A stretch of 64,000 bases of DNA, taken from the NCBI GenBank assembly GCA_019914995.1, contig CM034132.1:5603501-5667500 (forward strand). The letters are read 5' to 3'. Position numbers and translations under genes: made by a program. The DNA is from Acanthochlamys bracteata (lineage: Eukaryota > Streptophyta > Magnoliopsida > Pandanales > Velloziaceae). Each line of letters begins with the position of its first letter. Position 1 is the stretch's first letter. Positions 13,379-55,100 of this stretch are shown in pieces. Below the pieces are notes generated by a model that did not search any database, was not told where the DNA came from, and saw only the letters and a program-made list of their open reading frames with translations.

Positions 13379-13408
13379 ATTCACGCGCTTAATAACGCGG
13401 GTGTGATC

Positions 13409-14890: not shown

Positions 14891-14894
14891 TTTA

Positions 14895-24990: not shown

Positions 24991-25004
24991 TTTTACTTCA
25001 CTGG

Positions 25005-26214: not shown

Positions 26215-26428
26215 TTATATTATTTGTTTGTTAGTGTTCTTGTCAATTAGAAGTTACTAAGAGTATAAGATAAAACCTTCAGTCTTTGTGGTGTGAGAAC
26301 ATTCATTAAGTGAATCAAGTGCTTTCTTTCTAGATACTAAACCAAGTAAGCAACTAGACTTGGAAGTTACCCCTCTTTAACAAGAAGCTCATTTGTAAGC
26401 TTATGTTCTCTTTAGGGGTTTGCTTGTG

Positions 26429-27699: not shown

Positions 27700-30470
27700 A
27701 TTGCAGCACGTGCTTAGCCGCTATAGAATTTTAGTCATATTAATGGCTTCAGTAACAACCATATACTCAGCTTCAGTGGTTGATAAAGTAACTATATGTT
27801 GCAAGAAAACTTTCCAACTTATAACAGAGCCGGCAAGAGAGAATATATAATCGGTTAAAGATCTTGTACGATCCAAATCTCCTTCATAGTTTGAATCAAC
27901 ATAGCCAATAAGTGCGCAACCACCTATTAGTAAACTCCAAACAAGTAGTTGATGTACCTTGCAAATAATGGAGAATCCATTTAAGAGCTTGCCAATGTTT
28001 CTTTTTTGGATTTTTTGTATATCTACTAACAACACTAACAACATAGAACATGTCTGAACGAGTGCACACCATTACATACATAAGACAATCAACTGCACTG
28101 GCATAAGAAATTTGAGATATAGAAGACCTTTCTTCTTCAGTTTGAGGTGATAGACTTGAAGAGAGTTTAAAATGAGCTGCTAAAGGAGTGCTAACAGGTT
28201 TAGAATGATTCATATTCTAGCACTGTAAAACCTTTTCAACGTAACTCCTTTGAGACAAAAATAGCTTTCAAGTTTTCGGTCTCTTAAGATTTCTATGCCT
28301 AAAATCTTCTTCGTAGCTCCTAAATTCTTCACCCCAAAATTTTCATTCTGCTTTGTTTTCAAATTATAGATCTCTGACAATCTGACATGTTCTTTGTAGT
28401 AATTAACATATCATCAATAGAGAGCAGTAGATAAATAGGTCCATCATCAAGCTGTTTAAAGTATATGCAGTTATCATATTGACTTCGGTTGTAGCTAATA
28501 TCCACCATGAAAGAATCAAACTTTTTATACCACTACTTGGGGGATTGTTTTAAACTATACAAAGACCTTTCAGCAAGCAAACATGGTCTTCCTTCCCCTC
28601 AAAGACAAAACCTTCAGGTTGATGCATATAGATTTGTTTTTCTAATTCACCATGCAAGAACATAGTTTTGACATCAAATTGGTGTAACTCTAAATCATGC
28701 ATGGCTACTGATGCAAGCAAGAGACGAATAGACGTATGCTTCACAACATGTGAGAAAATGTCATTAAAATCAACACCCGGCACCTGAGAGTAGCCTTTTG
28801 CTACAAGTCGCACGTTGTATCGTGCATTTGCGATTTTTTAAGCATTTGTTTTCTTGAAAAACCATTTGCAATCAACAATTTTCTTTCGTTGTGGTAGCTT
28901 TACCAAAACTATAGTCTTATTTTTGTATAATGACTCAATTTCTTCATTCATTGCAATGAGCCATTTTTCAGATTCCTTGTAGAGAAGTTATTGTAGGATC
29001 ATCAATAGTCTTAGTAACAGATAAGGCATAAGCAACAATATTTGCATAACCATACCTCTTAGGTGGTTTAATTGTTCTTCTTTCTCTATCTATTGTAATA
29101 CTGTGTTACTGTGTTAGAATTTGAGACTAAGGAGATGAACCTTGTTCTTCATATACATGCATATCAAGTGAAGAAGGTTGAGAAGACACAGCAGAAAGCA
29201 GCGTGTGAGAAGAAGTGGAACAATTGCCATTTCCATAGTGACCTTGGAAGAAGGTAACTCATTTTTCTGAGTTTAAAGAAGCCGCTGAAATCCTTCTAAT
29301 ACTGAAGTAAAACTAATTCATCTAAGATCACATCACGACGAATAAAGAATTTAGGTGACTTAGGATCAGTACACCATAACCTCAAACCTTTAACACCAGA
29401 AGCAAAACCAAGAAAAATACACTTCTTGGCTCCTGGCTCCAATTGGCCGTCATTGACATGCATATAAGCAGGACAACCAAATACTTTAATGTTGGACTAA
29501 TCTGCAAGAACACCAGACTATACTTCTTCTGGAGTTTTACATTCAATAGTTGTATGGATAGTGGTTCACCAAGTAGCATACCATATTAACTACTTCTGCC
29601 CATAACTCTTTGCCCAAGCCTTCATTGAACAACATAGAACGTGTTTTTTTAAGAAGAGTTTTGTTCATGCGTTCTGCAGCACCATTTTTTTGTAGAGTAT
29701 AAAAGATTGTATAATGCCTTGCAATTCTCTCTTTCAATCAGAAAATTTTAAACTCTTCATTGCAAAATTCAAGACCATTATCCGTTCTTAGCCGCTTAAT
29801 CTATTTTCCTATTTACTCCTCAATAAAAAACTTTCATTACTTGAACGTTTCAAATACTTGACTCTTTTGTTTCGAAAAGAAAATCTGAACCTTTCTTGAG
29901 AAGTCGTCAACAAAACTGAGCATATAATTAGCACCACCTTTGGAGGGAACTTGTGAAGGACCGCAAAGATTAGAATGAATATAATTTAAAGTGTCTTTTG
30001 TACAATGAACTACTGTGCTGAAAGCAATTCTCTTTTGCTTGCAAGAGAGACAATGTTCAAAAAAATCTATATTGCCAATTTTTTAATTGCGTAACAGACC
30101 TCTTTTGCTGAAAATTTCTAAACCTCTCTAACTCATATGGCTCATTCTCATTTGCCATAATTTAGTAATGTCGGCTTCAAAGAGAGATGAAAAAGCAACA
30201 GCTGCTAAATCGGAGATAGTGCTATCATTCAAGAGTTATAAAGTGCCAATCTTTTTTGCCCTCATAACTATCAAATTTTCTCAGCAAATTTTCATGGCTC
30301 CACCTTCAGTTGAGAATTTACATCCACTAGAATCATGAGTGCCCAAAGAAATAAGGTTTCTTTTCAAGTTGGATACAAATCTCATGTATTGCCATACTCT
30401 GATTTTTTTATAATGAGGTGCTCTACTCGTTTAGCTATCTAATCGCAATACCAGCTATGTTTATGAGGTT
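27700..30470 (-). mobile_element. Ty1/copia retrotransposon pol fossil
   Basis: On the minus strand, from right to left: pre-integrase region (about 30470-30100), integrase (about 30090-29380, with NGAAERMNKTLL), reverse transcriptase (about 28820-28500, with GVDFNDIFSHVVKHTSIRL and HQFDVKTMFLHGELE) and RNase H (about 28210-27720, with LSTTEAEYM). The sequence is close to the Tnt1/Tork type. It is broken many times (about ten or more breaks), lacks a recognisable gag and has no assignable LTR pair. Confidence 0.8.
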
Positions 30471-32725: not shown

Positions 32726-32980
32726 GGAGTTATTTGGCAACGCGTTGGTAAAAAGTAATTTTTTAATTTTTATTTCACATTTGTGCAATATATATTTTAT
32801 AAATATTTAAAAAATTATTTAAAAATTTAGAAAGCACAATAATTTTATATAATAAAATTTTTTTATTATTTATTTTTATTTTTTATTAGGTTAGAAAAAT
32901 AGAATTTATTTTTTAAAACAGTACAAAAATATATTTCGATTTTAGAAAAATTTCATTTTAAAAATGCTCCCAAATGTTAC
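32726..32980. mobile_element. Tourist-type MITE, copy 3
   Basis: A 255-bp element between TTA repeats (32723-32725 and 32981-32983), with termini GGAGTTATTTGGCAACGC and, on the other strand, GTAACATTTGGGAGCATTTTTAAAATGAAA. Same family as the two other copies. Confidence 0.8.
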
Positions 32981-33017
32981 TTAAGAGAAGAACGCAAGGA
33001 TTCGAAGAAGTAGGCGA

Positions 33018-34335
33018 ACTAACTACCTAAGATGCTACTGCTTGACTGAATGCCTCTGACAAAGACTCCGCCGTTCAACTAGCACTCGTTGGTTATTTTT
33101 ACCTTTTACAAACAGAAGGCAAGAAAGATAATCAAAAACAAAGAACTTATGAAGCAACAGAAGGATACAATGAAAAAGGAAATGTTTAACTAAGAAGTCA
33201 AACGACTGCTTGATTTTATTGATTGCTTGCATTGAGAAAAAGTTAGACCACCGAGAACCACCAACTGCAGCTACTTTTGGACGAACTGCGAAGCAAAGTA
33301 AGCAGAAAAGTTGTCTTGAGACATCATCTTCTAACCTGAAAGGATTAAATGAAGAAAACAACAACTAAGTTAAGAAGAAACGAGTAGAATAAGGTAATCA
33401 AATGGTTTAGCTGAAAAAGCAAAATGATTGCTTGATTTGTTGCCTGCATTGAAAGGAAATTGGCCACTCCAACAGGCAAGCGCTACAGCTGCATCCAGAT
33501 GCGTTGACAAAGCAAAAATTAATTGCAAAGTAATTTAAGAAGAAGTGATTATTCTAGTAGAAGCTACAAATACCTAGACAATCGCAACAAACAGAAACTT
33601 TTAACCTACCACTTAACTAGCTGAAGATGACATGGAAGAGATGGGAAACCATTTGACCAAACAAAACCAGTATGAATGCAACACACCAAGCTGTAAAACA
33701 ATAATGATAGTCGTACCGAAAATTGTGAGTTGTAGCATTCCTCACAACCATGACATTGAGTGGCATTATTCTAGATGTAAGTTGCAAAATCTTCTAGAAA
33801 CCACCACATTTGCACAAAAATTCAAGACAATTTTCAATATTCGTGTATCTGCAACGAATATAATAAGCAATCATAACATCAAATTATTTACCCAAAAAAA
33901 AAATATATATATATATCATAAAAACATACACCAACTTTAAAATGCTGAAGATGACAAACTGATGACCAAGGATTAGAAGAGCTCTAACGGAGGCCATTAA
34001 ATCTTATAACCGAAAAATTAAGAGGAAGAGGGACAAAACAATTATCGATGCAAGAAGACGAATCAACTTAAGCCACAATAAATGGATTTAAAGAAGCAAA
34101 CCACTTAACTAGCCATGAAGAAAGTCACTTGATTGATTGAAAGAATTGAAGGAAGTGCTGGTCCTCTGACAAGCAATCAATTGGTTATTTTGACATGGAA
34201 CAAAACGATGGAAGGAAATTTTAATTAGTATGCAAGAAAGCTAAGACCTAAGAAGGAACATGACAAATTAAAGAAGAAGAAAACTTAACTATCAGCAAGT
34301 GGGATGAGTTGATCAATTGCCTTACATGGAAGGGA
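33018..34335 (-). repeat. Short splice-like block, cluster 1 (five copies)
   Basis: On plus the block reads TTAACTAA, a variable gap, AAGTGACTGCTTGATTGATTGCCTGCA. Copies begin near 33018, 33184, 33407, 34105 and 34287. On minus it reads TGCAGGCAATCAATCAAGCAGTCA with a pyrimidine-rich, CAG-ended border before it, as an exon would have. Confidence 0.65.
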
Positions 34336-34390
34336 AGTTCGCAAAACTGAAGCCAGAGAGCAATACAAAATCACGAGAAACAAATCTCAC

Positions 34391-34456
34391 CTCTGTATTA
34401 GATGGATGATTTATCTTCTCAAGACAAACAAATCCACCTCGGGCCTATACCAAGTA
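34391..34456 (-). repeat. 66-bp splice-flanked block, copy 1
   Basis: On minus: TTTCTCTAG before the block and GTGAGA after CAGAG. Members of this family occur at 34391, 35000, 40174, 43007, 44199 and 45905 in the same orientation. Confidence 0.65.
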
Positions 34457-34999
34457 CTAGAGAAATCAAGGATGGAGTCAAATAGAAAGCCGATAACCAT
34501 ACCTCCAAGAGAAGACAAATAAAAGCAATTTTTAATGTAAACATAAGAACATATTCACCCGATCGTATGTATTGTTTTAAACCCAGGTTTCACCTTTACA
34601 GAAACTTAACGACAACAAATTTTAAAAATTCAACTTAACTTGACCTATAATCCTTTTCAATTAATACCAAATTTTCAACCTTACAAGAGATAACAAAACC
34701 ATCAAATTTCAAAAGGTGCGTTTATAACAAGTTACAGCGTTGATTACTGATAATCATGAAGTGAGGTAGTACTAAACCAGCATATACCTTTGACATACCA
34801 TTTTACTTGTTGATCTAAAAAAAGTTCTATTGTTACTCTTCGGTTAATTACAAGAAGCAAAAACTTAAAACTGCAGAAATAAAGTCAAAGTTCCAATGAT
34901 AAAAATTAAAAGAAAGAACTCAATTCCATATAATGCCAGCAACCATATTAACAAACTATCAATGGTAAAATAGATTGTCAAATCAGGAACAATGCTCAA

Positions 35000-35066
35000 C
35001 TCTGCACTCGCCGGATCATTTATCTCCTTGGGATCAAAACAAATCTTCTCGGGCCTACATTAAGTA
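35000..35066 (-). repeat. Splice-flanked block, copy 2
   Basis: 67 bp, acceptor TTTCTCTAG kept; the donor position reads GTTGAG rather than GTGAG. Confidence 0.65.
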
Positions 35067-35620
35067 CTAGAGAAAACATAAAGGATGGAGTCAAATATAA
35101 AGTTAATTAACTACATTACTCCAAATCAAAGCCAAAGTAAGCCATTCTTAATGTTTACATAGAAAGGCATCCACTCAATGGCATCATTGTATTAAGTTCT
35201 CGTTACTTCTTTACATAAACCAAATCACAAAATTTTTTTCAATCAATAAATGCAGCTCAATTTGATCTATGATTCTATCACCTAATCTCAAACAACACGA
35301 TGAACACTACAAACACAAAGCAATCACAGTAGGCTTAAAGAGCTCCGAGTTCTTTTTATCTCTACCTTGAAATTTTAAATGGTTGCTTATACACAGAAAA
35401 TTTCAAAACAGCAAGAACGAATTCAATTGCAAATCCAAACCTATTCGATACCAACAAACTTCTTTACCTTTATCCGCTTAAAAGTTTGATTCATTTTTAA
35501 TTTAAATGACAAATCTTGATTGGCTTTCTTCCTAATCACTCCTAGATTAGCATATTCTTCGTAAAGAAAAGAGACACAAGTAAAAGGACCACAACAAGCT
35601 AGCTAGGAGTTCATCCTAAA

Positions 35621-38232
35621 TGTCACGACCCATCCTGATCGTGACCAAACCTAGTATGAATGACACCCAAACTCGGTTCAATCTAGTAGGCCTAATCCAA
35701 AAACACAGAATACGACTTTCGCAAAAACATTTTTAATAAATAAATTTTCGGCAAAACTTTTTCTAAAATTTTAAGTGAAAATCTGTACCACAATAAATTA
35801 TTTGACAACGACAAATATAAACGAGACAAAAAAGTAATAACCAAGTAAAATATCAGTAGCCGCCCACACCTATTACATATCCAAAATATTAATTTACAAA
35901 CTAAATACAACACCAAAAATACATAAGAGCAACATATCTTTAGAGAATAACAGAGCCATCTATATGACAAAATGAACTATAGATGCGCGGATCTACCATC
36001 GATGCGCTATGCTACTGTTCGGTGCTGGATTTACTCAACTCCCGTTAGTCTTCGAAATACCTGAGGAAGGCCAAAGCAAAAATAAAAATAAACCCAATCT
36101 TAGTGAGATGAAAATAACATAATGCACAAATTTAGAATTTCTAATGTATTACCTAACTGTTTCAGTTATTTTCACTATATGCAACAGATACAACGATGAA
36201 TCAAAGCACGTCCTACCGGGTCGTAAGTCGTCCCTTACCAGCTCAGTTTTCAGTAAGGACAAATACGAAGGGCATGACATGCAACTAATGTAGTCCGAGA
36301 GATACTACACTATTTATTTATATTCATTAAAGCAAACAACATAGTTTATACTTCTTACACCATGACATGTTAAATATATGAAATCTAACATGCACATTAT
36401 ATCACCATTATGCATGCATACATGACATTGTGCATTGGACAAACATATGTTTACTATGATATCATTTATAAATATCTTTTTATGTCCATGATGTGACACT
36501 AGTCAGGAAATCAGAAAGATAACATATAACATAGACTGAGACTCAGTCTCTACCTCAATCGACCAATCAGGCTACTCTGCCTCGGCGAAGTAAAACGCTA
36601 TCCAGGTGATTAGTCTGAATGGGTCGTGGTACCGTTCCCACGTGTATGGACCTGACAAATATTTGGGTCCACATCCACTGCAGCTCTGATGTCAGTTCCC
36701 GATTCGTCTGTGCTCGTGTAGTGCGTGTGTGTATGCATTATGATACAAGCAAACTCATGCATCTATAGTTCAATCAATCTCATGTGCCTATGCACATATA
36801 TGGTTACATAATTCATACGTCAATGCTTAAAGATTATGGTCATGTAATAAACAATAGGCATTCTGGATTTATAAAGTTACCATACTTGCTATCATCATAG
36901 GCAACACTTTAAGCATGCTCCAAGTGACTATGCATTATATGTAAGAACTCATATGACATATATAATCATTCATGCTATTGATTCATCAAATGCTTAGCCC
37001 CTATAGTTACAATATGCTACTATGATTAATTCATAATGAATTCTATACAAGCACGCTCCGCACATAGAGACATCATATAACATTAGGAATAATCATAAAT
37101 AAAATGTGGTAAGATATGCCGAGGTTCCAGATATATGTTATCTGTATCAGAAACCTATCGTAAACTAAGAAAGGAAAGGTATGGTAACCCTCACCTGTAA
37201 TCCCGCAAACTCTCTATTCCTTTAGTCCCTCCAAGTCAAACCATTCGGCCCACGTCCCTCAATGAAATGCTATTACCCACACGGGCACATGTATTACTTA
37301 AATGCGTTGAACGAAACTAACTCGAAATCATAATACATTGCATTGTCCAATTCAACTCTTTTATTCACATTGCTGCAACAGCGAAATCTCATTCTAAGTT
37401 TCATCCATTCAACTAATCATTTAAATCCTATCCATTACTCAAAAATACTAGCGTTAGAAAGATTGGTAAACTTACTGATTAAACGAGACAATTATACTCC
37501 AAATTATGTTCGAATCATTGACCACTCATGAATTTCTCAACCTAACAATCACCTATAACGAAACTAATTAATAATCCATCCAATAGTATTGTCTAAGCGC
37601 ACAATATGCATAATATAACTCAACTACAAGTAGGGCCCATTTGACTGCCGAATTCTAGCGTGAATAGTACTGGTTGGAAAGTAATTGGCCGAAAAAAATT
37701 CAAACAGCTGCGACATGCAACCAATTAAAATAGTGTTAAAAGAAGGACGTTAACACGTCAATTAGCAAGCCGATGGCCGAAAATTGTCCAAATCGATTCT
37801 ACTCGTCCGACAATGCAATCTATAAAAACAAGTTGAAATTCAACTCAATTGGCAAAAAAAAAAAATATTATCGAAATAAAGAGACAAATATCATGTGCTT
37901 ACTTTAGTCGAAAGTCCGGCGAAAAGGTCCAACAAAAATCTAATTTTACCCACGCATAGTAAAAGTTAGTGAAAAGGCGACGATGACGAACGGAGAGAAA
38001 GAAAATGAAATCTAGAGACAAAGAAGAGGTCCACGTCGCCGAAGAAAAAGCTTATATGCCAACATATGACCAAGTTCAAAGAGGAGCAGGTAGATGGTTG
38101 CGTGCAGAATAGTAATGAGAAGAAAAAAGAATAAAAGAAGATAAGGGAAAAAAGAAAATAATAAGATAATTAATATAAGATAATATGGGCTTAGTTTGGC
38201 TCTGGCCCACATACCAAGTGCAGGGTGTTACA
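35621..38232 (-). mobile_element. Solo LTR, long gypsy (Tekay/Del-like) type
   Basis: 2612 bp, TGTCACGACCC at one end and GGTGTTACA at the other, flanked by a perfect 5-bp repeat CTAAA (35616-35620 and 38233-38237). On the minus strand it starts TGTAACACCC and ends in GTGACA, the usual form for chromoviruses with long LTRs. It contains no coding sequence. It splits one copy of the exon-like locus; the same two flanks are continuous at 44.83-44.86 kb. The perfect target duplication suggests a fairly young insertion. Confidence 0.85.
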
Positions 38233-38244
38233 CTAAACAACACA

Positions 38245-39100
38245 TCATTATTAATAAAAACACAACTTATGACAAATATAAACTGTGTGAATCGTGAAAA
38301 CTGAAAATCGTAAAGATGGAACAAAGAAAATTACTTGTCAATTATTGAAAGAAGGCACTGCCATGATGGGTAAGGAAGATAGAATGAGCCTGATTCTAAT
38401 CAGATATGAAATTGAACGTATCTGCTCTTGTTTGTGACTTCCAATTGTGAAATACGAGATGCAATGTGATTCTGACATCATAGTTCAACTATTAAATTAC
38501 TAAATGAGGAGGCTCATCCGAAAGAAATGAAATAATAAAAATAAAATAATATACAAAGAAAATAAAATAACAAAAGTTACTACGTGCTTTGAAAAATCGC
38601 GAACACTGTGCATAATATCATGGAATAGATGAATTTATAAACTACACTATATTTTGACTTATCACCAATGTGGTTCCCTAATTTGTGCATCACTAATTAG
38701 ATTAGAAATTTACTACTAGAAGTACCTAGCTCTCCCCGATTGGCATAATGGCGAACCTCGTAATCCTGAACAGTATTAAGAAAACTGCTGAATCTCAATC
38801 CAAGATAAATTAAATATATAATTTCCTTAAATCATAGCACGGAACGCCTAGCTCGGTTTCTGTACCACTACCTACTGCCACGTTCACATTGCCATCCTCA
38901 ACCTAAATGGATAAACAACTAAGACAAGGAATCTCATTTTCATCAATAGCAAATCCATTAATCTGTACTAGAATGCTTTACTCTGTAAGATTATTCAATG
39001 TATCCAACTTCCAAAGGGCATCTTCTATACGTGGGAGCATGAAAATATCATAGTCTAGAAAATCAATGAAGAAAAGATGACCAAAATTCTATCGACAAAA
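38245..39100 (-). repeat. Locus segment R, copy 1
   Basis: Recurs at about 44860-45850 and 46460-47000. On minus it includes a splice-like block ending at 38902 (after CCATTTAG) that reads VEDGNVNVAVGSGTETELGV, and a stretch near 39050-38990 reading LPRIEDALWKLDTLNNLTE. The product is unknown. Confidence 0.6.
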
Positions 39101-39101
39101 A

Positions 39102-39640
39102 CTAAAAGTAAAAATTCAAGTTTGTAGAACACCAGTACCTTTTACATTCAATTGGAGGACTCTCATTAACAAAGTTGCAAGCCCTGGTAACAGGATGTTG
39201 TCCAAGCAGCTTGCTGCATGAATTATAACCACACATGCAAGTGCCATATGATTTACTAGACAACACTGTAGATAGTTTTCTATTCTTCATTAGGTAGGAT
39301 AGATTGCCATTACATTTTGACTAACATTTATTAGCTTTTGCCTCAACTCTACATATCGTATTATCTGTTGTTTACACAAATTAGAAAATACAAAAGCTTG
39401 AGCTACCTTAATGTGGATATTTGTGTTGCTTGGTAGTTTCCGCAACAGATTTTCTAATTCCTCTAATCTGAATTACTTTATATTGGCTAAACATGCAAGC
39501 TCTTTGCTCATAGGCAAAACATGATGCAATATACTTACGGTGCAAAAGGAAATAGAAACTAGAACTAAATAAGAAAATAAGAACTCACTGCCCTCAAAGA
39601 AATACTGCATATTCACTAAAAAATTACTAGTTACAATTGG
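39102..39640 (-). repeat. Locus segment S, copy 1
   Basis: Recurs at 40720-41230 and 43230-43740. It carries two splice-flanked blocks on minus: 39467-39407 (61 nt, TTCAG before, GTAGCT after; LEELENLLRKLPSNTNIHIK) and 39265-39139 (127 nt, CTACAG before, GTACTG after). Phase fits: the first ends on a codon boundary and the second starts on one. Confidence 0.6.
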
Positions 39641-40173
39641 CATCCTAGAGGTGAAATATAGTTGTTATATTTGTTTTAATTTCGTGGTTTAAACATATTA
39701 CTACCTTGTTTGGGACTTATAGTGGTTCTCATGTCATTATTATGTAATTGCACAGGTTCATTCTTGAATTACAGGTGAGAGACTCTGTGAAAAGATTTTT
39801 GAAAATTTGGGTACAAGTTGGATTTGATTGAGCATTGGTTTTGGCTTACGAGGCTGTCCCAAGCTTCGCTTTACCTGAGTGTAGTTTTAGTTTATGCGGG
39901 TCATAACACCAACATGCGTCATGAACGACACTAGACTAAAAAAAACCAAGCTAAGGTCCAAAAACTTGGCTTAGGTTGGGCCATGACATACAAGCAGATA
40001 AAACAAATCATACTTGACTGCTATCACTTGAAATAGTTGATACAAACATACAAATAAACTCCACATAAATAGCAATAATTACAGTTTCTACAGCCCAAAG
40101 GGCTGGATGGAGCATGAAAAGAACAAAGTGTAAACGATCAAGCAGCAACATCAATTCATTGGAAACGACTCAC

Positions 40174-40241
40174 CTCTGCAACAGCTGGATAATCCATCCT
40201 CTGAGGTCAAATACATACCTTTCCCCCGCATCCAAAATACA
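40174..40241 (-). repeat. Splice-flanked block, copy 3 (open)
   Basis: 68 bp with TTTCTCTAG before and GTGAGTCG after. In phase 0 this copy is open and reads CILDAGERYVFDLRGWIIQL, then LQ; the same frame in copy 5 has stops. It is the best preserved member. Confidence 0.65.
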
Positions 40242-40719
40242 CTAGAGAAACATTAAGGATGAAGCATAGAAACTTCCTAACCTGCTAATCCAAAAATAAA
40301 ACTGACAACAGTCTTTCTAATTTATACATAAACAATTATCCACTTAATGGTATCTACTGTATTAAGCTCAAGTTTCCCGTTTACAGAAATCAGACCATAA
40401 AATTTAGAAATCGGAATTCCAACTCAATTTGCTCTATAATTCCTTTCACAAACCCAAGTTTCCACTTTATAAAATATAAGAAAGTTTTTTCACATGTAAA
40501 ACATATGTTTCTAATAGTTACAACATTGATTATAGTAATCATGAAGGATGGTACCACTAAACAATCGCATTCCCTGAAATAGCATTCAATTTGTTTACCC
40601 AAAATGCCCTATTGTACTCTTCCATTAATTGGAAGAGGACAAAAGCTCACATTGAATTAATTATAGCCAAAATTCTAGTAACAAATGCTAAGACTAAAAA
40701 TTCAATTCCATAAAACACC

Positions 40720-41370
40720 ATTACCTTTTGCATTCAGTCAGAAGACTGTTATAAGAAAGTTGCAAATCATGATAACAGAACGATGTCCGAGCAGCTTGCT
40801 GCAAGAATTCTAACCACACATGCGATGTCACATAATTCACTAGGCAACACTGTAGATAGTTTTCTATTGCTCATCAGGAAGAATAGAATGTTATTACATA
40901 TACACTAACATTTATGATCTTTTCCCTCAACAATACATATTTATTATCCGTTGTTTACAAGAATCCAAAATACAAAATCTTGAGCTACGTTAATGTGAAT
41001 ATTTCCGTTGCTTGGTATTTCCATAATGTATTTTATAATTACTCTAATCGAATCACTTTATATTTGTTATACATGCAAGTTCTTTGCTCAAAGCCAAAAC
41101 TACATGATGCAACGTATGTGCAGCGCAACAAAATAGAAATAAATATATAAGAAAATAAAAACTCACTAACCTCAAAAAAATACTGCATGTTAACTCAAAA
41201 CTTACTGGTTTCAATTGGCATATTAGAGGTAAATGAGCTGTCAGTATTTTGGTAATTTGAACCTATTACTACCTCGTTTGGTACTTATGATGGTTGTCAT
41301 GTTATTATTATGTAATTGCACAGGATCACCACTTGAGTTTATAGGTGAGACTCTACCTAGAATGAGGAAC
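40720..41370 (-). repeat. Locus segment S, copy 2, plus an adjoining block
   Basis: Contains 40849-40725 (125 nt, CTACAG before, GTAATGG after), open throughout. A further block near 41345-41270 reads DPVQLHNNNMTTIISTKR with GTAGTA after it; its counterpart near 39760-39700 reads EPVQLHNNDMRTTISPKQ. Two diverged copies keeping the frame favours former coding sequence. Confidence 0.6.
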
Positions 41371-41398
41371 AAAGAGGTCCAACCAAAGAAGAAGAGAA

Positions 41399-42180
41399 CT
41401 TAGCTAACAACATAACCAATTGCTTGATCGATTCCCTTGCATCAAACAGAAGTTTGCCTTCCAACCTGAACTCCTTCGGTTCTTGTTAACCCTAAATAAA
41501 AGAGAACAGGAAAAACAATCAGCATACAAGTAACCCAAAAATTCTAGCACGGTAAAAAGATTTTGGAAAAGCAATTAACTAATCAAGTGAAATGACTGCT
41601 CGATTTATTGCCAGCACTGAAGAGAACTCGATCCTCCCACCAGCGCTCGATTCTTTAATTCTGAAGAGAAAGAAAAATGAAAAATAATTAGTACCTAAAA
41701 GAACAATGAAAGCTAACGAGCTACACAAGGACTCACCAAAGAAGCAAGTAAGTGACTGCACGACTGATTGCCCTGCAAGGAGAAACGTAGAACACCTAAC
41801 TGCTATTCGATTAATTCTTTGACCTAAAAGGATAAGAGATATGAAAAACAATTAGCATCAAGCAGGAAAAGAGATTATGGATCAACAAAAGAGTTAAGAG
41901 AGGTAGGAAAATTAACTAAGCATGAAAGCTGCTACTTGATTGAATACAATTCACAAAAAGTCAACAATCCAAGGAGCACTCCATTGCCTTTTTGCCTTAG
42001 AACAAAGAGGGAGGTAGAATAGATAATCAGTATGCAAAGAAACTAAGAATTTTAAGAATCAAAAGAAGAATTCAGAGATGAAGGAAACTTAACTAAGCAT
42101 GCAACGAGTGCTTCATTGATTGTTTGCAACTAAAAAAGGTTGACCATCAAGCACCACTAGTGCAGCAACCACTGAAGAAC
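41399..42180 (-). repeat. Short splice-like block, cluster 2 (five copies, period 165-180 bp)
   Basis: Copies start near 41399, 41575, 41740, 41910 and 42090, giving spacings of 176, 165, 170 and 180 bp. The copy at 41740-41795 on minus has TCCTTGCAG before GGCAATCAGTCGTGCAGTCA and TTTG|GTGAGT after, which look like complete acceptor and donor sites. Confidence 0.7.
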
Positions 42181-42596
42181 TGCAAAAGCAAACTAACCAG
42201 AGAACAAGATTTAAGACAAAATTATTCTGTGAGAGCTAACACATAATCCACTAACAAAAACAGTTGATATGCGAAAATTTTAGAGTTTTAGACGTCTCGG
42301 TAAATACATCTTATAAGAGGCGACTGTGAGCTCCCATTCTTATGTTGACCAAATTCGCTAATTTTGTCACACTATACTATTTACTCATCTAGAATATTAG
42401 TCTATTGCAGTTATTGTAGTTATCCAAGCCCACCCAAATTGTTTTCTCCAGTGCGAGATCAATTTAACTAGCCTTGGTGTCAGTTCTATGTTAGCATTTA
42501 GTTTAAGAAATTATGAACATAGACCAAGGGGGGCACAAACCATTTCCAAGTCCAAGCAATAACTTTACTATTATCGGCTTGTTTACTAACACACCA

Positions 42597-42725
42597 AACT
42601 CACTTTTAAACGAAAATAAATATAAGATGTAAAATAAATTTTTCCAGTCAAAAATTTATTTTCAAATTCAACTTTAAACTCACTTTTAATACAAAATAAA
42701 TATAAAAACTCACTTTTTATTAATT
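42597..42725. repeat. AAACTCACTTTTA repeats
   Basis: Three direct copies of AAACTCACTTTT(A/T) near 42597, 42677 and 42706, each followed by A-rich AAAATAAATAT sequence. Possibly the inside of a small AT-rich element; no terminal repeats were established. Confidence 0.4.
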
Positions 42726-43006
42726 TCTTTCAATTTTAAAATTATTTTTTACAAACACACTATGTAACAAAGGCCAACTGGTCTCAAGACAGATACTAAA
42801 CAAACAAAATAAATTAAATTGAATATAAAAGAGACCCTTCCAGAGAAAAGTACAATTGCTTCAGCTACCAATCCTTAAAAAATTGCTTCCGACTCATGCA
42901 ACAAGAACATAGCAACAAGCAATCAACAGAGATCAAAGAAAAGAAAGGGTAAGAACAATGTTAACAGATCAAACAGCATCACAAATTCATTAGGAACGAT
43001 GGTCAC

Positions 43007-43072
43007 CTTTGCAATAGCTGGATTCTTTATATTCTCAAAACCGAAACAAATCTTCCTCAAGTCTCTATAATA
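43007..43072 (-). repeat. Splice-flanked block, copy 4
   Basis: 66 bp, TTTCTCTAG acceptor kept, donor side CAAAG|GTGACC. Followed at lower divergence by the S segment (43230-43740). Confidence 0.6.
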
Positions 43073-43229
43073 CTAGAGAAAGCATCAAGGATGGAGTTAA
43101 ATAAAAAGCCAATAACCTGCTACTCTCCAGAATAAAAATAATAAGAACAGTTTTTGTTTGTATATAAGCAATTTATCACATCAATCTCTAATGAGAAACA
43201 CTAAATTAAAGTTTCAATTTCGTAGAACA

Positions 43230-43740
43230 CCTGGCTTTTGCATTCACTCATATGACTATCACTAACAAGGATACTTTTCAAACCATGGTAACAAAAAAAT
43301 TGTCCAAGCAGCTTGCTACAGGAATTATAACCAGACATGCAGTGCCATATGATTTACTGGACAACGCTCTAAATAGTCCACTATTGCTCATCATGAAGAA
43401 TAGAATGCCATTACAGTTATACTAATTATAGTTCGTCTCAGTTCTACATATTGAATTATCTGTTTTCATAGAAGTATAGAAAATACAAAAACTTGAGCTA
43501 CATTAATGTGGATAATTTTGTTGTTAGGAATTTCTGGAATGGATTTTCTAGGTTTTCTAGTTCAGTCACTTTATATTGACTAAACATGCAACTGCTCTTT
43601 GCTCATACGCTACATGATGCAACATCTTATAATGGCTAAACACAAATAAATTAACAAATAAATAAATATGCATTAACCTCAAAGGAATACTGCATGGTAA
43701 CTCCAAAATGCCTTTGCTAATTGACAGTCTAGAGGAACAA
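43230..43740 (-). repeat. Locus segment S, copy 3
   Basis: Matches the copies at 39.1 and 40.7 kb, but its block at 43366-43235 (132 nt) has lost the acceptor AG and the frame. ATGCAGTATTCCTTTGAG with a GTTAAT donor near 43695-43680 is shared with 41185-41170. Confidence 0.6.
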
Positions 43741-44198
43741 CCAAATAGAATAAAATCTACTTGACTTGATAAAAGTTTAAATACAAAAGTCTAAAATCTA
43801 TGTAGAATCTACGACAAGCTTCACATAAATGACAAGAACTACAATGTCTACATCTTCCGGAAATGGATTAATCAAAATCAAATAGGCCAGCCAGTCTTAT
43901 GACAGATATTAAACAAACACAATAAACTAAAATGAATATATTGAAACCTCTCGTAAGAAGGGATGGCAAGAAAGAATAATATGAAAGAACAAGATATGCG
44001 TCCCAATTAATTAAAGACCAAAAATACATTGACGAAGGACTTCAGATATCAATACAGCCAATTCTGGAAAATTGCTTCTGACTCATGCATAGTCAAAGTA
44101 GTCACAACCGATCAATGGAAATTAAAGAAAGAAAAAGGCATGAACAGGTCAAAGTAGAAACCAAGCAGCAACATAAATTCACTAGGAATGAAGCTCAC

Positions 44199-44266
44199 CT
44201 CTGCACCAGCTGGATGATTTATCTTCTCAGGATAAAATCATATCTTCCACGGGCCTATATCACGTA
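44199..44266 (-). repeat. Splice-flanked block, copy 5
   Basis: 68 bp; donor GTGAGC is good, but the acceptor reads CTAC instead of CTAG, so this copy would not splice normally. Confidence 0.6.
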
Positions 44267-44859
44267 GTAGAGAAATATCAATTGTGGAGGGAAACAGAAA
44301 GTCAATAACCATGCTACTTCAAACTATAATTAATATAAGCCATTTTCAATGTACATATAAAACATATGGATACCTACGGTAACCATTGTATTAAATTCAG
44401 ATATTTTCCCCTTTAGAGAAATCAAATGACAAAAATTTGAAATCAAAAAATTCAACTCAATTTGAACCGTAATTCTATTCAATAAATCTCAAAATACACA
44501 ATGAGCACTACCGGCACAAAGTAATCACAGTAGAGCTTAAAGAGCTCCTATTTCTTTCTTAGCTCTAGTTCATACTTTTAAATGGTTGCTTATACATAGA
44601 AAAAAAGGAGCATTAAATACTCCAGCTATATAACCGTAAAAATGAATTTAATTGCAAATCAAAACCTATACGACACCAACTAACTTCTTTACCTTTATCC
44701 ACTTAAAGTTTGATCACTTTAATTCAATGACAATTCTTGAATGGCTTGATTTTTCTTAATAACTCCTTGATTAGCTTGATTCTTCTTAAAGGAAACAGAC
44801 ACAATGAAAGAACTAGCTATCCTGAGAGTAATGCCAAAGCAGCATATAGTCATTAATAA

Positions 44860-45850
44860 AAACACAACTTATGACAAATAAATAATTCCCAAAAACCATG
44901 TGAATCTTGAAATTTAAAAAAATAATTAAAAAAAGACAAAAACAGACTCATTATTTTGCAAATTATTAGAGGAAGATGTAACCATCATGGGTAAGGAAGA
45001 TAAATGAACCTACAATTCTAATAAGAGATTGTGCCTTTTGCCTGTACTTAGTATGAAATTGAACCTACCTGTTTCCTGTTTGTGACTTCCAGTTGTGAAC
45101 GGTTGAATACTAGTACATAATGTAATGTCACAGTTCATCTATAAGATTACCAAAAGAAGGAAAGCTCATCTGAAAAAATGAGATAATAATGAAATAACAT
45201 AAAAATATAGGAAAATAGAACAACAAAACTTACTACCGACTTTTGAGAATTTGTAGTACTACCATAATATACTGGAATTGTTGAACAATAAACTACATAT
45301 TTTTTGACCTATCAATAAAAGTAATTCCCTAGTTTCTATATCACTACTTGCATATAATATTCTGTGTACTAGATTAAAAATTTACTAAAACAATGCATCA
45401 TTCATAGTTCTTAGAGAGGCACCCAATCGGCATAATGTCAAAGCTCATCATCCTAAACAGTATTCAGAAATAAAGCACTCAATTGCAATCCAAGATGAAA
45501 TTAAACATACCGAATTTCCTGAAAACTTTTAACTTGTTTCAATTCAAGCGACACAACAACTTCACTTGGTTTCTATATCACTGCCACATTCACATTGCCA
45601 TTTGCAACCTAAATGGATAAACTAATAAAAGAAGGAAGCTAATCTCAAAGGAATCAGTAAGAATGCTTCACTCCGTAAGACTATTTGATAGATGTTAGGG
45701 ACAAGCAACAGGAGACTCCTATGAGAGATTCACCAAACAGCAGCATCCACTTGTGTTTGACGACTCTTGCCCAGCTAGGCAAATGCGAACTAATGCAGGA
45801 TTCAATGTATACACCTTCCATTGGGAATCTTCTATGAAAGAGTATGAAAA
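44860..45850 (-). repeat. Locus segment R, copy 2
   Basis: Includes a 98-nt block 45608-45511 with CATTTAG before and GTATGT after, reading VANGNVNVAVI, a stop, then KPSEVVVSLELKQVKSFQEI. It is the counterpart of the block ending at 38902. Confidence 0.6.
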
Positions 45851-45904
45851 CAACAAGAGCAAAAGATCAGTCAGCAACATAAATTTAACAGAAATAAGGT
45901 TCGC

Positions 45905-45970
45905 CTCTGAACTAGCTAGACGATTTATGTTCTCAGGGTATTAACAAATCTTCCTCACCCATATCATGTA
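45905..45970 (-). repeat. Splice-flanked block, copy 6
   Basis: 66 bp; acceptor GCTCCAG kept, donor changed to GCGAAC. Confidence 0.55.
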
Positions 45971-46299
45971 CTGGAGCAACATCAAGGATGGAGCCATATA
46001 AAAGGTCAATACCCATGCTAAAGAAACTAATAAAATCGATTTCTTAAGGTAAAAACACTCTATTGTATTAACTTCAAGTTTCCCCATTATATATACCAAA
46101 CAACAAGATTTTGAAATCCAGAAATTCAACTCAATTTAGTTCATAATTTTATTTTACTAATCCAAAAGATGCTATGCCCACTACTAACACAAACCAATCA
46201 CAGTAAAACTTAAAGAGCTCCTACATCTTTCTCACTGAGCTTCCAAATTAAATGGTTGCTAATGCACAGAGAAAATAGACATTACATACTTCAGCTACA

Positions 46300-47000
46300 A
46301 AACAGCATGAATAATTAAGTCTAGATTTTATTGGTCCTAAATCAGTTTTTAATCTTTTATTTAATGAGAATTCTTGATTGGCTTAACTTTTCTTAAAGGA
46401 AGAAACAGAAGTAAAAGAAGTAAAGAACAAGCTACCCTAAGAGTAATGCCTAAACAGCACATAGTCATTGATAAAAACATATGACAGATAGATAAATAAT
46501 TCAAAAAGATCATGCGAATCTTGAAAACTGAAAAACATCAAGTGGCAAAAAGAGAATCACTCTTTTACAAATTATTGAAGAAGAGGTAACCATGATGGGC
46601 AAGGAAATAACATAAAACTATGATTCTAATGACATATTGTGGCATTTGCGTCTGGTTAGTATTAGATTGAACCTAACTGCTTCCTGTTTGTGACATCCAG
46701 TTGTGAATGGCTGATTGTTGATATAGAATTGTGACATCACAGTTTAACATTAAATTAATGAATGAGAAGGAAAGCTCATATGGATGATAACAAACATAAA
46801 TTAAAAATTCAGAATTTGAGAATTTGTAAAACAACAACAGTTAGTATCAACTTTTGACAGTGTCCATAATATCAAGGAGCAGATGAATCATAAACTACAC
46901 TATATTTTGACCTATCAATAAAAGTGATCCCCAGTTTCTTTATCCTAATTTACTACAGGAATGCATCATGCATAGTTCTTACAGAAGAACTAAGCCATTC
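46300..47000 (-). repeat. Locus segment R, copy 3, with preceding shared sequence
   Basis: 46300-46470 (GATTGGCTTAACTTTTCTTAAAGGA, CTACCCTAAGAGTAATGCC) and 46460-47000 parallel 44.6-45.4 kb. The parallel fades at about 47000, where the first-exon-like region starts. Confidence 0.55.
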
Positions 47001-47308
47001 CCTAAAGTTTTTAGAAACAAAGAACCAATTGAAACCACAAGCATTGTTTCAAATTCCTGAACGCTCATTTTGCAATTAAAAAATTCTTGCACTCAAAGAC
47101 AGCAGAAAAAATTCTTTGTATCCAAATACCAACAGAAAAAATCTTGCATCATCAATTGTTTTCTCACAGCAGCCGCTCAAGAAAAAAAATTAGGGTTTTA
47201 ACGAAACAAAGAACCAATTGCAACATTAAACCAACCGAAACCAAGAACCAAATAATGAAATTGAAAAGAAAGAAAAAGAAACAAGGATCATTTACCCAAT
47301 TTCCTCAC

Positions 47309-47352
47309 CGGCGAACAGAGAGAACTGGAAGCGGCGATGTTTTTGAAGCCAT
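47309..47352 (-). CDS. Candidate first coding exon of the repeated locus
   Basis: On minus, CCGGCAATGGCTTCA is a strong plant start context; the frame reads MASKTSPLPVLSVR and ends at a good donor, CG|GTGAGG. The sequence is GC-rich, as first exons often are. Upstream, 47353-47405 is a 27-bp unit (CGGCAATGGYCTTCTTTCTC) repeated about two and a half times, with further ATGs, one of them in frame. An alternative start at 47438 gives MGNCSISLHRQW in another frame, ending at the same donor. The protein family is not recognised and downstream joining was not determined. Confidence 0.4.
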
Positions 47353-47506
47353 TGCCGGCCGGTGGAGAAAGAAGGCCATTGCCGGCAGGTGGAGAAAGAA
47401 GACCATTGCCGATGGAGTGAGATGCTACAATTGCCCATTCCGCCGCTGACGACTTCGACCGCCGCCGGTGGAAGCGTGAGAAAGAAATAGAGAGAATTTA
47501 GAGAGA

Positions 47507-47520
47507 TGAGTTGGCGGGAA
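47507..47520 (-). promoter_or_regulatory. E2F-like promoter site
   Basis: TTCCCGCCAA on minus (TTGGCGGGAA on plus, 47511-47520) matches the plant E2F/DP consensus and lies about 160 bp before the candidate start codon. In plants such sites mark genes for DNA replication, repair and chromatin. Only one site is seen, so this is a weak functional hint. Confidence 0.4.
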
Positions 47521-47529
47521 GAGAGAGCG

Positions 47530-48260
47530 CTTTTTGTTTCCTTGTTTGCGTTTAAGAGAGATATTATATTATTTAAGAGAGAGAATAAAGCGATACAACG
47601 GTAACAAACCTTTATCCTGAAAAACGAAAGAAAAAATAGACTTAATTCTAAGAAAAAAGAAAATAAACCCTCAATCTGAAGATAAAGGGTAGTATAGGAC
47701 GTGTAATAATTAAATGGACTATAAACTAAAACCGTCTTAGCCTAATATTTATAAATTGATAAAAATTATGGACTAAAAATTTTACTTATTGCAAAATGGA
47801 TTAAATAAGTAATCCTAAATAGTACTACAAGAAACTAATTAATCTTTTCTAATATCTAGAGAATACTCCTTATTCAATTTTAGCACTCAAAATTACTGAG
47901 ACTCCTATAAGAGGTTCCCTTAAGAGTTGTTTTTAAGCCTCTCGAGTGCATGTGAAAGCTATTAAACTACATTTTGTGATAAAGCAATTTTCAAAAAATA
48001 AGAAAAGCAAATTTAAGAAATATAAATACTAGTGCACATTTCTTAATTGTTTAATTTTGATTTTGTATTCTAACAAAAAAAGGAAGCATCACACTATCTT
48101 ATATCCATAATAATTCAATTTTTCAAAAATTTTGAAATTATTCTCATTTGCATTTACTAAATTCATGTTGATAGACTTTCGATTAAAACTAGAAAATTAG
48201 AATTTTGAATTCTAAGAAAATTTATTAGTAGTTATTACATCAATAGGAGCTTACCCAAAT
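47530..48260. other. AT-rich spacer
   Basis: Upstream of the repeated locus and before the next gypsy fossil. Contains GA-rich and AT-rich tracts; nothing recognised. Confidence 0.5.
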
Positions 48261-49190
48261 ACCATGTATAACCAAGAGATTTTGCTTAAACCTAGGCTCA
48301 TGAAGAAAGATCACGCAAGATGTAGGAGCTACCCGAGTTGCCAAGACTATGTAACCTGCTGGCGGGTTACTAAGATCCACTTCGTATGAGTTTGAACAAA
48401 TAAGGAGTTGTTTTCATAGTAGTTAGTTGTTAGCTTTAAGGAGTTGTATATAGTCTTTGGTAGCTTAGATGCATTTTAATTTGGAACAACATCTAGCTCT
48501 GACTATAATATAAATAAGTGTATACTTATTATTGTTGGGCATGGAATGCACAACATAAGTTCTTATTTCTTCTTTATTTTTTGGCTCGTCTTTATTTTCT
48601 TATATCTCTCTCAGCCTCATGTGTCTCACTGCGCTTGCTCATTTTCAAGTTCTATCAAATTGATATCACAACAATCCCTTGAATCAATCAATGTTAGTTA
48701 GTTCTGAATCTCTACAATCACTAGCATTTACACCTTCAGTGGATGCTGAAAGTTTCAGCAATAATAGTTGGTACCAATTTTTGCAGTTCAAAGCTCGAGA
48801 GAAGTTAACTGCTAAGATCAATACTTTGGTCATCAACCTAACCACATGATATTAAAAGTGCAAATTAATGAAGAAAAGTCGAAAATATGTCAACTCATAC
48901 AAGAGTTAGTACGAAGGTGTAATGCAAATATAGACACCATAGAATAACTACTATCACACCCAAATCTACCCTGACTCTACCAAATGCCCAACCCTACCAG
49001 TCTTACTATCTACACCTAATATCAAGACTGTAATAATCTTACCAGAGATAATACCAACAATAGCAATCCTTACTCATTAGTTGTTACTGACAACAACAAA
49101 AACCTCGCTGCACCACAGAAAATCCTATTATTACCACTTCATTCAACAAACATCAATGTGGCCTTACCCTTAATAAACCCCACACTAACT

Positions 49191-50500
49191 TATGTGCTTA
49201 AATATATGTATAGTCACATGCACTCTTATATCGTATATGTTTTATTTTATATAGAAAAATTGATTAAAAAGAACATTACTTTTTTGTTTTCTTTATTTTC
49301 AGTTTTCTGTGTAATTTAAGTATTTTTAATGAAAACTTGACTTTTTGCAAGAGTTTTTGCAAATGACCAGTTGAATTTGAAAGCCAAGACATTGAAATTG
49401 GTTCAATAATTTTTTGAGAAATTTTCTGGTTGCTATTTGATATATATTTTTACAGAGAAGTTTGAGCGCATACCTGAATCATGTGCAAATTTTGAAATAA
49501 GTGAAGTTGAATGCCTTTCTAATTTTTAAATAATATGTGTGATATATGGATGAAAGGATAAAACATAAATCTTAAATTTCATATTTTTACATACTTGTTG
49601 GAGGCCAAACATATCCCAAAATGTCGCACACAAGTGGGTTGACAACAAGTTCAAATTAGTGGGGACTTTGTACCAACCTAATTATGAAAAGAAAAATCCT
49701 ATGATTTTAGTTTCCAAATTTTCGATTTCTTGGGATAGCTAGAGTACAAGCGGCTCTTTTCGGATTTTCAATTTTTCTTACTGCTAGAACAGAGAGAAAG
49801 AGGAAAGGAGTAAATAGCAAATAAGAAAGACAGCAGTTCACTTGATAACACTATTTGTTTAGAATTCTTTTGTTCTATCTACGATGTTTTTTTTTGTGTT
49901 GTTAGATTTAAAAACTATGGACTAAATTCTTTTTGCAGTGACTATGATGTAGCATAATTATGATGATTTAATCCCTAATTTGTACTATCGAAGTTTTATA
50001 ATTTCTTATTGAGTATTTATGACCAATATTCAATTCATTTGAGATTTATATTGAGACAGAAATGTGATGTATGGATTAGTTTTTGTAATGAATGCTATGA
50101 ATTGTATGAGAGATGGAGATGTACCTTGATTCATTAATTTAAGATGCCACTGAACTCTAATGAGTTCTCTTGTATGCCTATTCACATAGAGATATAGTGA
50201 GTTATTGCATGAAGTTTTTTTTGGTATAGCATGAGAAAGTATAGAAATAGAATTTTCCAACTATCAATAAATGCTATAATCTTCGATAGCATAAATATGA
50301 ATTGGTTTAGTTATAGTGAATTCAAATGCCCTAACTTCTAAATAAATGAAATCTCACGAGTGTTAGTTTTAACGTGTTTTATTTTTTTAGATTTAGCATT
50401 CACTTTTCTTAAATCGGTTGTTCAAGTAACTCTATGATTAGTTATTTCTATTACTTAATAAATTAATCAATTCTTGTGGAAACGATATAGTTGAAAAATC
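49191..50500 (+). mobile_element. Tat/Athila-type LTR inserted in the plus-strand gypsy fossil
   Basis: Same LTR family as 8441-9829 and 60159-61506 but in the opposite orientation: ATGTGCTTAAATATATG at the start; shared words include CAATTCATTTGAGATT, GAATTGTATGAGAGA and AATTAATCAATTCTTGTGG. It separates gag-like from reverse-transcriptase sequence. Exact ends and target duplication could not be fixed. Confidence 0.7.
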
Positions 50501-52162: not shown

Positions 52163-55100
52163 GTAATACCCTAGTTTTATTTTCAGGGTAGTTATGTCAA
52201 AATTGTTTTTCTTGTTGAGTTATCACACGTGAACCTAACTAGGCCAGCCCAAATCTTTCCTTTTAACCTTCTTTCTTTGTCTAGAAGATTCTTGATTTTC
52301 TTTTATTTTCCTATTCCTTCTTTCTTCATTCTTCCTCTCGAGTGCTCGTGTTTGCAATTAGAGGTGCAAATATGGACATGCCAAGCGGACCGACCCGGCT
52401 CGCTTTCCACACCCGAGTCGGGCCAGTCCGAGCCGATCCTACCAATTTATCCATTTTATTCTTTTATTTTAAATAATAAATGAATAATAAAAAATAATAA
52501 AATTTTAAAGATAATTTTTGAAAAATATTATTAAAAATAAATAACAAAAATATTTTTTTATTAGAAGTTGATCCTAGTCAACTGTGTATGTTGACTAGAT
52601 CAATAGGTCGTTATTGACCAGTTAACACGCATAGTGATCGAACGGGTAGCCCGACATTGTCGGCCCGATCGAGCCTATTGGACTGGGACGGACGGGCCAA
52701 GCCTCGAGCCATTTGGTTGGACAGTGGGCTAGCCATTTAGCCCAACTAGAATTTGCACATTTATTTACAACCTCCCTCCGACACATTGACGTTATTATCG
52801 CCAACCGTTTTGTCTCCATTCTCTGACTATCTTCTCACTCTTCTTTATCACTTATGTTTATCTTCGCAGGGACTCAGGCGGGCCTTCACGCACGATGGCG
52901 CATCTCTGCAAAACCCTAAATCCTCGCAGATGTTTTGCCGAAGATTCAACGTCTACAACTTCCTTGATTCCATTCCCTCGACTTGTTAGAGCTTTCCCTT
53001 CATCAATTATGTCGCATTTCAGCTCCAACGTCGGGAAGAGGTAGATCTCCGGGCTACCGTGAAACTGCTCGATTCAGGCGTCCAGTGATTGTTTGAGACG
53101 TTGTTATCCATTCCTTTGAATTTTGTGGTAGCTAGAGCCTTCTTTTCTATGAAATCTCTTGTAACTATAGTTCCCCAAAAGTCGGGTGGAACCGTAGGTT
53201 AGCAGTAATCTGGTGAGTCGGCATGCCCTATGTCTAGGTGTTGTTCGAATTGAAAATCAGCGTAATTCATTATTAAAATACAAGGTCGTTTCACGCCAAT
53301 TGTGTCTTTTGAGCCGGTGAGTCTCTAAATCCTCTAGTTCTAGTTCTTTTACAAGTTCATTGTCGATTTAGTGATTAATAATTAATTCTTGGATTTGATC
53401 GCACTCTAACACGGGACTTAGGTTAAGTTTGAAAACTTTACGTGTAAATGAAGTATGATTAGGTTATTATATATCACGTGATAAGCGTATTGGTTATGTA
53501 TTAGGCTGAAAACAGAGTTTAGACATGGCGATGCAGCTCAGAGATAACTTATGGATTAGCTCATGTCATGGACTTCAAGTGAGGGTTACCATGCCATCTT
53601 TTTTCCTAATTAACATTAGATTTTTGGCACAGATAACACCTACTTCGACCCTCCAGCAAACTTTTCCACTTCGTCACATGTATGGTTTATCCCTTATGAT
53701 GTATAATTATATGATGCATGTTTTCTAAAGGATGATAACTATAATTATTTGTGGTAGCATGAATAGTATTTTTTATTAATATAATGTTGTCATTTATGTA
53801 TAATGAGAGCTTGTTGGATATTGAAAGATGAATAGTGTATATAAGAATGGCTTTGATAAACTTTTATTATGTTTCCGTCTAACTATTAATTATTTATGAT
53901 GGAACTTACGAGTTTTAGATATATTATTTGGGAATGATTTGATACGATGCTATTATTCTTTCATTTGATAAACTAATGAATTATGTTTAATGATTTTTTC
54001 TAAGTTTTAACTAAATGTGTTTATTGATGTTTTTGTGGATTTTTTAATGCTCGAATGGTCGAGCTGTATTAAGGCATCCGACAGTCAAGGGTTGAGTTCA
54101 AGATCTCGTCACTCCTCTCTCTCTCTTTCGTCTGTAGATTAGGAGGGCCTATGCGTGTGGGGATGAAACCACGACACCTAGATTGGATTATAGCACTAGT
54201 GCACGAGCTGGAAACGCGATCTCGTTTGATCCTTAGTATCTATCTTGACTCCCAAACTAGTGTGATTGTTGTGAATTATTGATAGGTATTGGATGCTGAT
54301 TTATTATGGAACCTTGATTGCTTATTGATTAGTTTTCAATATGGCAATCATTATTTTATTATATATTAAATTATTTATTATATTGTTATATATTTGCTAA
54401 TTTTATGATTTAATATGTTCCATTTACTATTTACCTATAATTTAGTACTTTTGTTACTTGTAAGCAATTTTTATATACATATTCTATTAGATTAGTAATG
54501 CATTTATTATTAATATATAAAGCATATTAACTTTGTTTTGATTGTATATCTTTGTTCAATGCATATGCATTGTATATAACTGAACCCTTTCTATTGAGGA
54601 TTGAGTCAGCATGAGACGATTTAGGACTTAGTAGGAATGATTCCATTACAATCCTTACAGTTTTGTTTATGTAGAAAGATAGGAATCAAACATGAGATAG
54701 TGCATTAGGAACATCAATGGTGCATCTTTTATTTCACCTTACCGATACTGGGCTCATTCTTTTTCTTTCCTCTCTCAGATATAATAAAGACAAGTAGAGT
54801 GGAGCTAATAACGTGATGCTGGCAAATTAGTGAGTTGAGGGTACAGTCTGAATGTTTCTTTTCTTTTAGATATTCGACTCTGTAACTTTGAGGTATTTGT
54901 ATATGTACTAAATTGTATAAGTAAGTGTTGCTATAGTGTTATATGTCTTTGGCTTGGAGGCCTCTAGTGTATTATTTGTCTAATTGAGGGTTAATCTCTA
55001 TCACTATAATTGGGTATTCTTATGTTAATTAAATATTATTATTGTGAAATTATTTAAGTTTTTTCTCTCGAGTTTTTAGGGGAGGTTCTATTGAAAATTT

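Follow-up and report, generated by a model that had tools for sequence, protein, structure and literature searches.

A one-orientation array of diverged repeat modules in Acanthochlamys bracteata that may be the worn, non-coding interior of an old transcription unit

Introduction

What has built a stretch of plant DNA that looks like a long series of duplicated exons and yields no recognisable product? The question is raised by positions 32,992-46,963 of a 64-kb stretch of the Acanthochlamys bracteata genome (contig CM034132.1, positions 5,603,501 to 5,667,500; the window hereafter), where an earlier reading, made from the letters alone (the sequence-only reading), had noticed repeated blocks with splice-like AG and GT borders on the minus strand and had suggested either a gene grown by internal duplication of exon-intron units or a spliced non-coding locus. 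The stretch consists of duplicated modules in a common orientation, has diverged in a non-coding mode and was later split by an insertion resembling a long terminal repeat (LTR). We consider it somewhat more probable than all other outcomes taken together that an old minus-strand transcription unit of the host left this array as its worn, non-coding, intron-rich interior, which was locally duplicated and then drifted.

Results

Repeat modules and their orientation

When the 64-kb window was searched by nhmmer with profiles made from module alignments, six copies of a module B, three of S, three of R and ten of T were found on the minus strand, all within 32,992-46,963, so that the common orientation holds in 22/22 copies. 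Both the single orientation and the block counts of the sequence-only reading are thereby borne out, if its 'short block' is taken to be T. Read in the sense of a minus-strand transcript, the order is R-B-R-B-x-S-B-x-T5-S-B-S-R-[insert]-B-B-T2-T3, where x is a short repeat. The features are as follows, placed by nhmmer unless another basis is given.

47300..47560, minus: candidate promoter/first exon (CpG-rich 5' end, from sequence; donor score 3.7)
46446..46963, minus: R module, copy 1
45841..46168, minus: B module, copy 1
44831..45399, minus: R module, copy 2 (its likeness to copy 3 reaches 45685)
44138..44499, minus: B module, copy 2 (56-nt block bordered by AG and GT, all frames closed)
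43884..43940, minus: short repeat x, first copy (partner 42771-42827, 84% over 57 nt)
43165..43748, minus: S module, copy 1
42945..43190, minus: B module, copy 3, without its 5' part
42771..42827, minus: short repeat x, second copy (self-comparison pair)
41374..42240, minus: T module, five tandem copies
40650..41267, minus: S module, copy 2
40111..40464, minus: B module, copy 4
39062..39699, minus: S module, copy 3
38231..38727, minus: R module, copy 3, 3' end broken by the LTR-like insert (nhmmer, insertion analysis)
35621..38232, minus: LTR-like insertion, outside the repeat system (TGTAACACCC...GTCGTGACA, TTTAG on both sides)
34954..35616, minus: tail of R copy 3, then B module, copy 5 (nhmmer, self-comparison, insertion analysis)
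34328..34674, minus: B module, copy 6
34078..34434, minus: T module, two copies (34434-34258, the first, overlaps B copy 6 and is weakest among the ten)
32992..33551, minus: T module, three copies

A weak S tail also lies within the array (34939-34882, E 0.19). Along the R copies (46446-46963, 44831-45399 and 38231-38727), short segments, for example TTCACAACTGGAAGTCACAAACAGGA-like ones, are kept far better than the neighbouring ones.

The profiles were built from these very copies, which therefore match by construction, and the independent evidence is the self-comparison of the array, which at E<=1e-3 yielded 30 matches on the same strand and one on the opposite strand. As control, 20 shuffles produced a lone same-strand match in one case and a lone opposite-strand match in one case; the same-strand self-matches of three further 15-kb stretches in the window numbered 3, 0 and 3. 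The best profile matches beyond the array were T at E = 0.33 (27,357) and B at E = 0.6 (13,106), and the S and R profiles had no match at E<=1 in the rest of the window; thus nothing below E = 0.33 was found for these local-repeat families in its other 50 kb. Modules were also copied jointly as larger units, for example 44081-45349 and 45789-46950 (1,281 columns, 68.5% identity). Because all 22 copies share one orientation, units of several modules were copied jointly and the rest of the window has no copy at E<0.3, growth by repeated internal, local duplication, as the sequence-only reading had proposed, is well supported. Since pairwise identity between copies is 62-69% in B, 71-80% in S, 67-73% in R and 47% on average in T, the duplications seem to be ancient and to differ in age.

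The size of the locus and of its blocks had been judged less exactly. The repeat-built locus described as 12 kb long spans about 14 kb, including 2,612 nt of later insertion, and the supposed 66-68-bp block does recur in copies, with 54-56 nt between its AG and GT borders and a repeated unit of about 250-370 nt.

The LTR-like insertion

The 2,612-nt piece at 38,232-35,621 separates R copy 3 from B copy 5 and splits one R-B unit. It starts with TGTAACACCC and finishes with GTCGTGACA (TG...CA), and a 5-bp target duplication, TTTAG, flanks it on both sides. When the flanks are joined, the sequence over their junction aligns with R copy 2 (45022-44705) and also with R copy 1 (46630-46373), which makes this a later LTR-like insertion; TG...CA ends, a 5-bp target duplication and an empty paralogous site, the marks of LTR retroelement insertion, were all found at 38232-35621. 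The insert may be a solo LTR or a short non-autonomous element. A 213-nt part of it has a 64% relative at 53547-53760.

Divergence in a non-coding mode

Indels between copies, counted over copy pairs, are seldom divisible by three (20% in B, 18% in S, 20% in R), and those of 1-2 nt dominate (70/113 in B, 26/39 in S, 27/41 in R). Column identity showed no period of three in B, S or R, where the lag-3 autocorrelation did not rise above neighbouring lags, and transitions and transversions between module copies are about equally frequent. The B block is closed in every frame in 2/6 copies and open in 4/6, against a chance rate of 0.64 per copy, the S a-block is open in 3/3 copies (0.60 expected), and one of the three S b-blocks is closed in all frames. 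The two open S b-blocks have frames out of register, with 1-nt indels between them, and their common peptide is limited to short end stretches. Concerning the phase fit that had been noticed between 39467-39407 and 40849-40725, the arithmetic is right, and the two blocks belong to different S copies; within single copies, S a- and b-blocks are phase-compatible in 2/3.

Pfam was searched with 110 of the 149 minus-strand stop-to-stop open reading frames (ORFs) of at least 28 amino acids, 39 being omitted by hand and plus-strand ORFs left out. Sixteen families matched at E<=0.5 in a table without cut-offs, each in a single ORF and with a lowest E of 0.0046, and matches so scattered fit no single gene. 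Nine consensus frames, taken from B, S and R but not from T, matched no family at E<=1. In sequence searches of the PDB with three ORFs, the lowest E was 0.19, to a WD-repeat protein, which we take as chance. Our conclusion is that the evolution of the array is not that of protein-coding sequence, and the protein-coding gene allowed by the sequence-only reading is not supported, given the frameshifting indels, the missing periodicity, the closed frames and the want of a strong family match.

Rfam gave no match for the whole window at gathering scores or for 32,900-48,000 at E<=5, and a tRNA scan of the window found nothing; with both scans empty, a small-RNA host or structured RNA was dropped as a candidate. 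Exact patterns had no match in three scans of the viral_contigs collection and one of genome_contigs; by their descriptions, these contain viral, bacterial and archaeal sequence and have little bearing on plants.

Splice borders and evenness of divergence

The B block has its acceptor AG in 4/6 copies and its donor GT in 4/6, with both in only 3/6. Among B dinucleotides, which have a mean of 0.59 (AG 0.60, GT 0.52), this border retention of 0.67 stands at the 76th percentile, a little above the rest, which qualifies the earlier impression that blocks mostly keep their borders. R retains AG at 0.66 and GT at 0.65, slightly under its mean of 0.69. The S borders are uneven, with the a-donor and b-acceptor in 3/3 copies, the b-donor in 2/3 and the a-acceptor in 1/3. 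The borders appear to be inherited, mostly without special upkeep, with T as a possible exception. Once gap-adjacent columns were masked, B and S diverged no more unevenly than permuted columns do (local alignment, p = 0.28 and 0.72; global alignment, p = 0.93 and 0.89).

Signs of transcription

Plant introns are usually T- and G-rich on the sense strand. The minus strand has more G+T than A+C in an unbroken run of 16 1-kb tiles (33,001-49,000; lowest tile 0.507), which takes in the array and continues upstream past the candidate start for about 1.4 kb. It is the longest in the window, the next being of five tiles each (1-5,000 and 25,001-30,000), and elsewhere in the window the tile mean is 0.500 with a standard deviation of 0.044 (46 tiles, low-complexity tiles 14,001-16,000 excluded). 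The run may be a trace of intron-rich transcription, for which it is supportive and not proof, because duplicated modules do not count as independent cases and an equal skew (0.571) is seen in the LTR-like insert.

CpG is frequent at the 5' end (47.3-47.6 kb): the 250-bp tile at 47351 has an observed/expected (o/e) CpG ratio of 1.3 and ranks fourth in the window by o/e x G+C. A 27-bp tandem unit, 2.4 copies long, lies in it at 47348-47411, and it closes at a donor-like CCG|GTGAGG (47308; donor score 3.7). We regard 47300..47560 as a candidate promoter or first exon. Together with the well-kept donor of T and the uneven R modules described below, the G+T run and the CpG-rich 5' end would fit past or present transcription; against this stands the fact that most B and R borders decay like the remaining sequence.

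Other features of the window

Transposon domains are present outside the array and mark the window as eukaryotic, most likely nuclear DNA of a plant. A MULE transposase domain lies at 17.3-17.5 kb (E 6.6e-15), followed at 17.7-18.0 kb by a weak match to FAR1 (E 0.0053, under the curated cut-off); FAR1 proteins are typical of plants. The window further contains a copia-type RVT_2 domain (28.6-28.8 kb) and the reverse transcriptase domain RVT_1 (8.0-8.3 kb). The direct repeat 2721-2989 / 6009-6264, with 93.7% identity and about 3.3 kb between its parts, possibly marks the ends of a young element, and the inverted pair 49188-50487 / 60165-61510 (1.3 kb, 71%) probably represents two copies of one element. 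The region 14898-15737 is a long T-rich array of a TTTTTTTTTCACT-like unit with two plus frames open, and 12794-13294 is palindrome-like, contains TA repeats and gives a self-inverted match of 512 columns at 76%. Two ORF-bearing stretches in opposite orientation, 13407-13759 (plus) and 19328-19789 (minus), encode closely similar peptides; no tiles in the window are more CpG-rich than the two in which they sit.

Discussion

The explanation that we favour, with confidence only modestly above even, starts from a transcription unit of the host plant on the minus strand, which would begin near 47.5 kb. Its non-coding, intron-rich interior would have been enlarged by successive duplications in the same orientation, probably caused by unequal crossing-over between copies, and the array would be situated in introns or untranslated sequence. 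The copies would afterwards have drifted, mostly neutrally, and an LTR-like element would have been inserted later; the blocks are presumably needed by no present product.

Several results weigh against this explanation. Over all ungapped columns, divergence is uneven in B (p 0.0025-0.0045) and R (p<=0.0005) and weakly so in S (p 0.02-0.17), and in R the unevenness persists after gap masking with both local and global alignment (p<=0.0005), where short segments of up to 94% column identity adjoin segments near 40%. Neither base entropy nor A+T content explains it (Spearman p 0.44 and 0.49; 20 windows). Even conservation as a proof of neutrality was consequently rejected for R, which is the result that most resists a neutral reading. 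The evenness of T gave p 0.019 and 0.078 in two alignments, both unmasked, as T has too few columns for masking. Among the borders, S retains AG at 0.82 and GT at 0.78, slightly over its mean of 0.73, and the donor-like CTTA|GTTAAG of T retains AG in 8/10 copies (99th percentile) and GT in 7/10 (95th percentile). Donor-like sites are in excess on the minus strand (29 vs 17.6 expected, z 2.7), which we do not accept as proof of splicing because sites copied by duplication lack independence and the plus strand, too, has an excess: at the strictest threshold there are 15 sites vs 7.2 expected on minus and 13 vs 5.6 on plus. Finally, S b-blocks are open in two of the three copies where 0.14 is expected per copy, and the best chain of open splice-bordered exons on the minus strand, found by dynamic programming, reaches 486 nt, which was equalled in 2/60 random sequences of the same dinucleotide make-up (mean 171, standard deviation 119).

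The last two of these results are what a protein-coding gene grown by duplicated exon-intron units would have in its favour, together with the phase compatibility of S a- and b-blocks. The exon chain favours coding weakly, and 233 nt of it come from a single stretch over T copies at 33.1-33.3 kb. The out-of-register frames of the open S b-blocks, the B blocks closed in every frame, the frameshift-type indels, the absence of codon periodicity and the Pfam and PDB results given above all speak against such a gene, and we consider it very improbable. Two coding systems of similar appearance can be compared. Micro-exon genes carry repeated small exons that are frame-symmetrical and coding; the array resembles them in its many short splice-bordered blocks that arose through internal duplication and differs in that block lengths and frames drift. 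A plant gene grown by tandem duplication across an intron-exon border shares the inheritance of splice signals from the parent copy; that gene underwent one duplication and is coding, whereas the array has undergone many old duplications and lacks a coding frame. An unrecognised transposon family present elsewhere in the genome, either as one degenerate, internally repeated element or as nested insertions, is a more serious rival, and one that we still hold to be unlikely. It would agree with the retroelement and MULE domains of the window and with the CpG depletion of the B, S and R copies (o/e 0.16-0.75). Yet separate insertions would not yield 22 copies in one orientation with common neighbours, and a dispersed transposon would be expected in both orientations at unlinked sites, whereas within the window searched all copies are on the minus strand and within 14 kb. 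The remaining 50 kb of the window contain no module copy at E<0.3, no inverted repeats of at least 40 nt were found in the region at the settings used, and only a single self-match is on the opposite strand.

The array could also be a live long non-coding RNA (lncRNA) gene made of local repeats, like the mammalian Firre locus, in which repeated exonic units would act as protein-binding or nuclear-retention domains and the other repeats would be intronic; T, the S blocks and parts of R would be the candidate exonic units. In its account of local repeats, PMC4820808 describes the Firre lncRNA locus as holding repeats of 100-750 bp, discontinuous within one locus, mostly intronic and with one family exonic. 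By that account, it appears to be the closest described architecture: the array has several families with units of about 100-750 bp, 22 copies of B, S, R and T that are discontinuous within one locus and recur nowhere else in the window, and most of them would be intronic. The differences are that Firre, as presented there, is a mammalian lncRNA locus whereas the plant array is known here from sequence, its exonic family is only a candidate, its copies are well diverged and its B and R borders are kept without special upkeep. In addition to this anatomy, the minus-strand G+T run, the CpG-rich 5' end, the segment-wise conservation of R and the best-kept donor in T would suit a live lncRNA. We nevertheless judge it unlikely, since B and R borders are retained about as other dinucleotides are, B and S diverge evenly after masking of gap-adjacent columns, and no Rfam family was matched. 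A bolder reading still, and a quite improbable one, would see here the first Firre-type gene in a plant, a non-coding RNA with exons and introns both derived from local duplication, in which function preserves short segments of R and the region of the T donor while the rest drifts. A plant equivalent of a local-repeat lncRNA was not found in a search of the open-access literature, which is no proof of absence.

If the worn, non-coding interior that we favour is only a fossil, the array would be a clear example of how local duplication can make non-coding sequence grow and, to the eye, imitate an array of exons. If it is transcribed, it would open in plants the question whether local repeats confer function on lncRNAs, as studied at Firre in the work described in PMC4820808.

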